From: Puia dinghuensis
Lineage (GTDB): Bacteria > Bacteroidota > Bacteroidia > Chitinophagales > Chitinophagaceae
Length of the DNA stretch: 33,097 nucleotides
Reading direction: 5' to 3'
NCBI GenBank assembly: GCA_026225275.1
Contig: JAMFSL010000153.1
Location: forward strand, 1 to 33,097
Of this stretch, positions 17,082-25,256 are shown one piece after another. The notes under the pieces were generated by a model, which saw only the letters and a program-made list of their open reading frames with translations, did not search any database and was not told where the DNA came from. The position numbers and the translations under genes were made by a program. Numbering within the stretch: position 1 is the stretch's first letter; each line of letters starts with the position of its first letter.

Positions 17082-17942
17082 ATGAATACTTCTCTGACTC
17101 ATTTATCGACCTTCCAGCGTCAGCAACTGGAGACAGCAAAAAGGATCATTATTCAGGCCGTTCACCCGGAAAAGATCATACTTTTTGGGGTGTTTAGCGG
17201 CGGGGAGAAAGCTACTCTTTTTACCGAAAGCCTGCCGTCGGGCATGAGGGCATATGATCTGCTCGTCATTACGCGTGTGGGCGACCGCCGGTCTGACTAT
17301 GAAATGCAGGATATTATTGAGAACCGGTGTCGAAGTGAGGTGCCGGTGACTGTTCTGGTGCATGATATCGACTATATCAATCAAAGGATCGCAGAGGGGC
17401 ATTATTTCTTCTCTATGATCCGGGAGGAGGCAATCATGCTGTATGATGCCGGCAAGACAGTTTTGGTGGCGGCCGGTCTGCCCGATCTACCACGCATCCG
17501 GGTGACGGCGCAACGGGATTTCGACCGGTGGGGGCGACAGGCCTGGGCCTTTTTCCGCAGTGCTGAATTCAATCTGGAGCGGGAAGAATGGAAAATTGCG
17601 GCATTTCTCCTTCACCAGGCGGCAGAGCAGATGTACCAGGCTATTTTACTGGCCTTCATGGGTTACAAACCTACAACGCACAACCTGGATAAGCTGCGAC
17701 GATACACCAATCGTTTTTCGATCGAATTGGCACTCCTGTTTCCCAGGGACAGTGAAGAGGAAGACCGGTTATTCCGGTTGCTGGTTTCAGGGTATGTGGA
17801 TGCGCGTTACAAAGAGGATTTCGATGTCAGTGGCTCCGACATAAAAATCCTTACGGAGAGAATCCGTCAACTGTTGGAGATTGCTGAGCGGATATGCAAG
17901 AACAGACTGCTGAGTCTGGAAAAAAGGATGGCGAGTATTTAA
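17082..17942 (+). CDS. Nucleotidyltransferase-like plus HEPN domain fusion protein
   Basis: A 286-aa cytoplasmic protein with two domains. Residues about 15-130 resemble a minimal nucleotidyltransferase (KIILFGVFSGG, then RAYDLLVI). The active-site signature looks degenerate: the usual GS after LFG is GV, and the first Asp of the DxD pair is missing (AYD instead of DxD). Residues about 145-275 are a HEPN domain (AFFRSAEFNLEREEW, LLHQAAEQMYQAILLAFMGYKPTTHNLDKLRRY, then SGYVDARYKEDFD). HEPN toxins of the HepT type carry RxxxxH; I do not see that motif in the expected helix. Related domain pairs act in toxin-antitoxin or stress systems, but both active sites here look changed, so a binding or regulatory role is possible. 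It is divergent from an XRE gene, and a 13-bp tandem repeat starts at its stop codon. Confidence 0.85.
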   Translation: MNTSLTHLSTFQRQQLETAKRIIIQAVHPEKIILFGVFSGGEKATLFTESLPSGMRAYDLLVITRVGDRRSDYEMQDIIENRCRSEVPVTVLVHDIDYINQRIAEGHYFFSMIREEAIMLYDAGKTVLVAAGLPDLPRIRVTAQRDFDRWGRQAWAFFRSAEFNLEREEWKIAAFLLHQAAEQMYQAILLAFMGYKPTTHNLDKLRRYTNRFSIELALLFPRDSEEEDRLFRLLVSGYVDARYKEDFDVSGSDIKILTERIRQLLEIAERICKNRLLSLEKRMASI

Positions 17943-18059
17943 AGACCTGAAGGTAAGACCTGAGGGTAAGATCTGAGGGTAAGATCTGAGGGCAAGACCT
18001 GAGGGTAAGATCTAAAGGTTAGATCTGAAGGCTAGACCGGACGGGTAAGACCTGTTATC
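17942..18059. repeat. 13-bp tandem repeat array (about nine units)
   Basis: Units of consensus AAGAYCTGAGGGT follow one another at 17942, 17955, 17968, 17981, 17994, 18007, 18020, 18033 (14 bp) and a diverged last unit at 18047. The first overlaps the last base of the HEPN gene's stop codon. The units at 17968, 17981, 18007 and 18020 contain AGATCT. At the right end, TAAGACC (18046-18052) pairs with GGTCTTA (18064-18070), whose last three bases are the stop codon of the convergent Rrf2 gene. A 13-bp period cannot keep a reading frame, and there are no unique spacers, so this is a non-coding minisatellite, not a CRISPR. Confidence 0.9.
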
Positions 18060-18504: not shown

Positions 18505-18669
18505 CGAGCCCGTGGCTCGATTGAATTTGGCGCTTCCGGGCTGTTAGCTAAAGTTGCCCGTCGCGCCAAATTGGCTAATGTCGGGAGAACTTCGGCGGAG
18601 CTTCGTTCCTCGCTCCTTCTCGTTCGTAACCTTCGCTTTGCTCGGTTATGACCAAGAGCCCGTGGCTCG
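18505..18669. repeat. Structured intergenic repeat element, copy A
   Basis: The gap between dapB and the Rrf2 gene is packed with hairpins. GAGCCCGTGGCTCG occurs at 18506-18519 and 18656-18669, bracketing the element; each forms a stem with CGT loop. AATTTGGCGC (18524-18533) pairs with GCGCCAAATT (18563-18572), continued inward by CGGGC/GCCCG. GGAGC (18597-18601) pairs with GCTCC (18612-18616) around TTCGTTCCTC. TAACC (18627-18631) pairs with GGTTA (18644-18648) around TTCGCTTTGCTC. The last two modules recur at 21207-21260 with changed but still complementary stems. I do not recognise the family. Confidence 0.85.
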
Positions 18670-21175: not shown

Positions 21176-21298
21176 GAACTTCGTCGGAGCTGCTTAGATC
21201 TTCGTCGAAGCTTCGTTCCTCGCTTCTTCTCGATCGTATTCTTCGCTTTCGCTCGAATACCCTCCTCCTCGTTCGTAACCTTCGCTCCGCTCGGTTAT
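21176..21298. repeat. Structured intergenic repeat element, copy B, between parA and parB
   Basis: Hairpins in order: GAAGC (21207-21211) with GCTTC (21222-21226) around TTCGTTCCTC; GTATTC (21236-21241) with GAATAC (21255-21260) around TTCGCTTTCGCTC; TAACC (21276-21280) with GGTTA (21293-21297) around TTCGCTCCGCTC. The last stem contains the parA stop codon (21295-21297). An internal near-duplication begins GAACTTCGTCGGAGC at 21176 and GATCTTCGTCGAAGC at 21197. The 21210-21248 segment matches copy A at 18600-18638 with 35 of 39 identical bases. Confidence 0.85.
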
Positions 21299-25153: not shown

Positions 25154-25184
25154 AAAACCCTCCTGACAATCAGGAGGGTTTTAT
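25154..25184 (+). terminator. Strong intrinsic terminator
   Basis: AACCCTCCTG (25156-25165) pairs with CAGGAGGGTT (25171-25180) around ACAAT, extended by flanking A and T. It ends the barrel gene transcript and precedes repeat copy C. Confidence 0.9.
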
Positions 25185-25208
25185 TTGCGCCAGGGGCAAT
25201 CTGGAAAG

Positions 25209-25256
25209 CAACCTTCGCTTTGCTCGTTTACGGGCAACGGACCTGTGGTCCGTTTT
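25209..25256. repeat. Structured intergenic repeat element, copy C, upstream of lon
   Basis: AACCTTCGCTTTGCTCG (25210-25226) repeats the loop module of copy A exactly, here with a weak stem. It is followed by AACGGACC (25236-25243) paired with GGTCCGTT (25247-25254) around TGT, matching the order in copy A, where the loop module is followed by a GAGCC/GGCTC triloop hairpin and TTTTG. Confidence 0.7.

Follow-up and report, generated by a model that had tools for sequence, protein, structure and literature searches.

The CGTC-tagged REP superfamily consists of short palindromes with varied stems that lie partly inside genes and have been reported in Bacteroidetes (Di Nocera et al. 2013, PMC3733652). 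The available part of that report states that no dedicated transposase was found for these repeats by its authors, and it counts RPE-4 and RPE-6 among the CGTC elements. Other systems that lend themselves to comparison are the Rickettsia palindromic elements (RPE) as a whole and the GTAG-type REP/REPIN sequences that occur with RAYT in E. coli and Pseudomonas. In mitochondria, repetitive double-hairpin elements are thought to be mobile.

The repeat described here is found in a clade of the family Chitinophagaceae. Like the CGTC-tagged REPs, as the available text on them presents them (PMC3733652), it has no flanking transposase and some of its units are intragenic, but its unit is made up of two hairpins of the same polarity. 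By the same text, the tag of that superfamily (CGTC, or TGTC/CCTC) is missing, since 15 of 132 copies have GTC at a distance of up to 5 nt upstream, and so is the short, mostly CCA tail, the 3' flank of the genus repeat starting with T in 90 of 134 instead of with CCA. Stems of CGTC-tagged REPs are there given as 8-9 bp, starting with AT pairs, with a loop of 4-5, whereas the stems of the genus repeat are 3-7 bp long and interrupted by CGAG/CGAAG. Many palindromic copies, amplified in a lineage, are a trait shared with GTAG-type REP/REPIN; however, no conserved GTAG stands 5' of hairpin 1 in 134 copies, the hairpin pair is of the same polarity and not inverted, and no RAYT flanks it. The repeat resembles RPE in occurring in-frame in proteins as well as between genes, but differs in its host clade. 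The mitochondrial double hairpins are likened by description, and the genus repeat is bacterial. Among the matches listed in a literature search of open-licence papers, no description of the genus repeat was found.

The repeat within the window

The window, by which we mean the whole stretch of DNA analysed, comprises 33,097 nt of Puia dinghuensis (GCA_026225275.1, contig JAMFSL010000153.1); its genome is designated G000. Positions 18600-18638 (copy A) and 21210-21248 (copy B) are identical at 35 of 39 bases. A preliminary description of the window had noted two similar hairpin copies here, an arm change from TAACC/GGTTA to TATTC/GAATA on both sides together, and a second change from GGAGC/GCTCC to GAAGC/GCTTC around TTCGTTCCTC. 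Both paired changes were confirmed in the sequence and the two copies are real, belonging to a two-hairpin repeat of 63-64 nt. While the copies themselves stood, their reading strand and the extent of copy B had to be revised: the functional reading is on the minus strand, where hairpin 1 is followed by hairpin 2, and copy B consists of one element nested in another, together spanning 21176-21298. A third copy, proposed at about 25210-25254, turned out to be a partial hairpin only, with a mismatch adjoining the loop motif. The features are given below, with scores from R1, a covariance model built on 27 aligned copies that all come from G000.

18506..18518, unstranded: second GAGCC-CGT-GGCTC hairpin, on the other side of the composite around copy A; from the sequence, absent from the sister genome
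18524..18572, unstranded: long palindrome AATTTGGCGC...GCGCCAAATT adjoining the CATTAGC motif, in the composite; from the sequence, absent from the sister genome
18587..18625, minus strand: copy A hairpin 2, GAA-CGAG-AA-GGAG-CGAG-GAA-CGAAG-CTCC-GC-CGAAG-TTC; same R1 match as hairpin 1
18627..18648, minus strand: copy A hairpin 1, TAAC-CGAG-C(AAA)G-CGAAG-GTTA; R1 match (18587-18649, 86.4 bits, E 5.9e-19, copy A being also in the model's own alignment), pairs kept through two-sided changes
18656..18668, unstranded: short hairpin GAGCC-CGT-GGCTC flanking copy A; from the sequence, composite absent from the sister genome
21176..21196, minus strand: copy B outer element, remaining 3' part of hairpin 2 (TAAGCAGCTCCGACGAAGTTC); from the sequence
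21197..21260, minus strand: complete inner element of copy B, lying within the second hairpin of the outer element; R1 gives 80.8 bits (E 1.8e-17), this copy too being in the model's own alignment
21271..21298, minus strand: first hairpin of the copy B outer element and the beginning of its second (ATAACCGAGCGGAGCGAAGGTTACGAAC...); R1 gives 26.7 bits (E 0.003), site empty in the sister genome
25210..25231, minus strand: degenerate or partial hairpin 1 only (CGAGCAAAGCGAAG, adjoining pair broken), not counted as a full element; R1 match 25180-25231, 18.3 bits, E 0.47

Copy A is located between dapB and an Rrf2-like gene. Around it, window positions 18506-18668 form a larger composite of two GAGCC-CGT-GGCTC hairpins and the long palindrome with CATTAGC. 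The CATTAG context was found again beside other copies of the element, and at the parA-parB junction of genome G143 a CATTAGC-type composite of this sort is present without the element. Separately, the window carries a 13-bp tandem repeat at 17929-18044, with six registered copies of AAGACCTGAGGGT-like units.

Copy family and covariation

The core motif CGAGC..GCGAAG occurs four times in the window against 0.26 expected from shuffles, and 64 times genome-wide; because the reversed control gives 28, part of these 64 matches is due to chance. A tighter pattern, CCGAGC..GCGAAGG, is found 38 times in the genome and its reversed control not at all. Further copies with covariation, which the preliminary description had proposed to look for, are indeed numerous, as the covariance model gave 67 matches at E<=0.001 in the window's genome.

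In the discovery set of 27 copies, pairing holds in 96.6% of cells, and changes on both sides affect 63 cells compared with 15.4 +- 3.6 in shuffles. Two-sided change is seen in 12 of the 18 proposed pairs, and none of 500 shuffles of this alignment reaches any of five measures. An independent set was assembled from 78 matches in 63 loci of other assemblies, which were not used for the model. Here 94.9% of cells are paired, 14 of the 18 pairs show two-sided change and 166 cells are two-sided against 33.5 in shuffles, figures that are to be read with the knowledge that the 78-copy alignment was fitted to the covariance model and leans towards the structure. Nearly all pairs are Watson-Crick, with GU accounting for 7 of 458 paired cells in the 27 copies and 13 of 1266 in the 78. 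Covariation is thus significant in both sets, in keeping with the earlier claim that a folded single strand is under selection. Hairpin 1 ends in a triloop in 75 parsed copies, 48 of which read C(GNA)G, and in a tetraloop in another 26. The oligonucleotide d(GCGNAGC) is unusually stable as DNA.

Distribution across genomes

Within the genus, the element was matched in 15 of 33 genomes, at 1 to 67 copies each, and in one clade of the genus it has been amplified to tens per genome. Across the family, 5 of 117 genomes gave a match and more than two copies were found only in the window's genome. A pattern scan of GTDB genomes returned Puia dinghuensis, Flavitalea sp. BT771 and several Chitinophagaceae assemblies, and matches to the scan pattern at 17 loci with other titles were weak (best 35 bits). 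Copy A had no match when compared with plasmid and phage sequences.

Relatives in other Bacteroidota

The hairpins share a common plan, namely a stem, CGAG, an inner part, CGAAG and the complementary stem. What stands between the two motifs can be a triplet (e.g. GAA, GGA), a C(GNA)G cap or an additional stem that has a loop itself, and the letters of the stem vary widely. We infer that CGAG/CGAAG forms an internal loop with tandem G.A pairs. This grammar unites variants with unrelated stems in one structural class.

A simpler relative with an ATTG/CAAT stem is present in 76 of 296 Bacteroidota genomes, where the reversed pattern was found four times in total. In that 296-genome set, neither the window's own genome nor ten other genomes of the family contained the ATTG form. 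The ATTG-type relatives in other Bacteroidota read NGTC-ATTG-CGAG-GNA-CGAAG-CAAT. Among 37 copies of ATTGCGAG relatives from 30 loci, CGTC, TGTC or AGTC directly precedes the stem in 31, and 20 have GAA, GCA or GTA as their inner part. These NGTC-tagged CGAG..CGAAG relatives connect the grammar to the CGTC-tagged REPs, a connection that is drawn from the tag and from our own comparison with the available part of the report (PMC3733652). On plasmids, a sequence of the ATTG type was matched in two Methylosinus records, with 36 of 36 bases identical. The 3.9 Mb Bacteroidota genome G149 holds 410 copies of a ATTGCGAG...CGAAGCAAT repeat and none of the reversed pattern. In genome G074 (L052, L057) a related hairpin lies between CCCCCTTAGGGG and GAGGGGG arms, apparently within coding sequence.

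Empty sites, nested copies and exchanged stems

The genome nearest to G000 is G124, with ParB 99% and the Rrf2-like protein 98.5% identical, and it is taken here as the sister genome. Copies A and B are both absent at the corresponding sites of G124. At the parA-parB junction G124 reads GGAATAGCCGCACC where G000 has GGAATA[element in element]CCGCACC. At the dapB-Rrf2 junction, compared over 16 stretches from the genus of which one is without dapB, the element is missing in G124 and in 14 other genomes, which have 15 to roughly 190 nt there; from G124 the whole composite of copy A, hairpins and palindrome (18506-18668), is absent. Some of the other genomes do carry hairpins or palindromes at these junctions. 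A single hairpin of the element type was found between parA and parB in G138 (22.7 bits, E 7e-4), other palindromes are present there in G118 and G143, and G117 has a different short palindrome between dapB and Rrf2 (10.7 bits, E 0.97).

Seven sites in G000 could be located in G124 by both flanks, three of which differ by presence of the element while four are shared. One shared site has a single element in G000 and an extra nested element in G124. At two of the shared sites (L358 versus G000:C57 and L359 versus G000:C58:35016) the stems differ and are still paired, between flanks about 78-92% identical, and at a third the element is nearly identical in both genomes. Judged from these sequences, resident copies may have been replaced by another variant rather than slowly compensated. 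Nesting is likewise a repeated occurrence, being seen in copy B, in C329 (the same nesting as copy B), in C213 and in C162, and tandem chains occur at C187/C212.

The paired differences between copies A and B had been taken in the preliminary description as compensation under selection. With both sites empty in the sister genome, compensation arising in place is not what the two copies display; they look instead as if two variants with different stems had inserted there recently. The repeat is mobile, as seen from its presence or absence at the same gene junctions in sister species, from copies inside copies and from in-frame copies in proteins.

With regard to the ends, TA borders the element on both sides (TA[element]TA) in copy B and at the C333/L355 site, where the empty site has a single TA, and several nested copies read TA...TA. 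A TA target duplication, suggested by these two empty sites, is unsupported over 134 copies: TA at the left and right ends is not associated (Fisher p 0.59) and the end dinucleotides are equal in 12. No common target or target duplication was shown across these copies.

Placement in genes and strand orientation

Gene calling by script places 18 of the 137 copies within ORFs (9 of 59 in G000 and 9 of 78 elsewhere), 12 of them sense and 6 antisense. In-frame copies were found in MacB/FtsX permeases, the DnaX linker, the C-terminus of an Mrp-type NTPase and a DinB-like protein; in the Mrp-type and DinB-like cases the spanning frames were read by eye, outside the count of the script. Pfam names were obtained for six of seven scanned host proteins. 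Three paralogous MacB/FtsX permeases (L148, L151, L160) carry the element in the same loop and in both orientations; one of the three copies is weak (C66, 23.8 bits, E 0.019).

Of 62 copies at tandem gene junctions, 50 have their GA strand in sense direction (50 to 12), a bias that exceeds what gene direction in 20-kb windows would give. Between convergent genes there are 20 copies and between divergent genes 21. Neighbouring sites in four large assemblies share a strand in 63 of 83 pairs, compared with a permutation mean of 41.3 and a maximum of 55 in 5000. For GC skew, 40 stretches of at most 20 kb were chosen from two of these assemblies; in 29 of them the element strand has positive skew (p 0.006), with 11 windows going against the skew and windows on one contig not being independent. 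Genes in those windows show almost no preference for the element strand (308 of 589), and replication orientation and the local sense bias therefore seem to be separate effects. The clustering of orientation, together with the tendency in GC skew, fits insertion into single-stranded DNA at the fork.

Search for a mobilising gene

A RAYT or Y1-type gene had been put forward as a possible associate of the hairpins. Candidates were sought by Y1_Tnp searches, which yielded two types of gene, and no RAYT transposase could be credibly linked to the element. The first type is an intact Y1/IS200-like gene (L033:1735-2211, G000:C180), present in single copy about 45 bp from one copy of the element, with HUH and the aligned Tyr kept. 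It is located between DAHP synthase/chorismate mutase and aroB in 25 of 25 loci (12 genus and 13 family genomes). As a partner of the repeat it was rejected, since the same gene order is found without a nearby element in 25 other genomes, none of which has an element match beside the gene. The Y1_Tnp search revealed no such aro-locus gene in G117 (100% complete, 29 elements) or in G123, and the Y1 gene of G146 is a different one. The data suggest that the aro-locus Y1 gene is a domesticated transposase.

The second type is a tandem pair of RAYT-like genes (L034:1407-2006 and 2119-2715, G000:C249). Each of the 14 genomes that have at least five hits contains the pair, as does one without hits (G035), and elsewhere there are distant matches (37% or less) or none. 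By alignment, the first protein has kept HUH and lost Tyr in 15 of 15 cases, and the second has lost both in 15 of 15. A split active site, with HUH on one protein and Tyr on the other, was considered and discarded, given that the alignment shows Tyr lost in both. No elements flank the pair, there being one 16-bit hit across 26 loci. In a ParB tree of 30 of the 33 genomes, in which the row for G120 is a wrong frame with a long branch, the element genomes and G035 fall on one side of a supported branch. Because they share one branch, the co-occurrence with the RAYT-like pair amounts to about one event and does not count as independent evidence.

Explanations for the spread of the repeat

More likely than not, in our view, the repeat belongs with the REP/RPE elements, as a palindrome that is mobile but non-autonomous. 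The folded minus (GA) strand would be recognised as single-stranded DNA via the invariant CGAG/CGAAG internal loops and the short caps. Recognition would not proceed through stem sequence, leaving the stems free to vary in pairs. Cutting and insertion of the element would take place while the lagging-strand template, or some other stretch, lies exposed as a single strand. The enzyme would act in trans, and Y1/HUH would be the best guess for it by analogy. Insertion at exposed strands would then occur in the manner of IS200/IS605 elements, for which the available part of the source describes a lagging-strand preference (PMC6006769). DNA folding energies of the two window copies (z -0.3 and -0.4) were considered as support for the single-stranded DNA reading and are not supportive, the RNA energies being better (z -2.5 and -3.7). 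Given the RNA folding energies and the sense-strand bias, a transcript of the element may also matter.

A more specific version of the mechanism is tentative and less likely. In it, a putative enzyme other than RAYT might act on single-stranded DNA at the fork, where it would read the GNA cap together with the tandem G.A loops (CGAG/CGAAG). Stems could then be exchanged freely, resident copies overwritten in place and hairpins enlarged by nesting, and the same class of enzyme could explain CGTC-type REPs and RPEs.

Rather unlikely, in our estimation, is a structured RNA element, such as an mRNA stabiliser, an attenuator or a protein-binding hairpin, selected on the transcript and spread only secondarily. 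Tandem G.A pairs are stable in RNA, the minus-strand RNA of the window copies folds into the consensus with the energies just given, and the GA strand is mostly sense at tandem junctions. However, copies between divergent genes, which receive no read-through from either flank, are as many as those between convergent genes, 6 of the 18 copies within called ORFs are antisense, GU pairs are almost absent and presence differs between sister species; a search of the window against Rfam also gave no match at gathering score.

Spread without dedicated mobility appears improbable; hairpins would in this case be propagated or overwritten as copies recombine, undergo gene conversion or are linked by template switching in replication. 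Such processes would suit the two sites shared by G000 and G124 at which the stems are different but paired, yet they leave unexplained the insertions at the element-free dapB-Rrf2 and parA-parB junctions. Very improbable is a classical MITE, whose double-stranded DNA would have been moved by an IS630/mariner-class cut-and-paste transposase with duplication of a TA target. Although two sites and several nested copies are bounded by TA as set out above, no terminal inverted repeat was seen, the hairpins at both ends have the same polarity, left and right TA are unassociated and the strand clustering along chromosomes would not be expected of double-stranded transposition.

CGTC-type REPs, some Rickettsia palindromic elements among them, are widespread and can enter proteins, according to the available text (PMC3733652). 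A clade with tens of copies per genome, empty sites in a sister species, nesting and strand clustering makes both the mover and the single-stranded DNA route directly testable.
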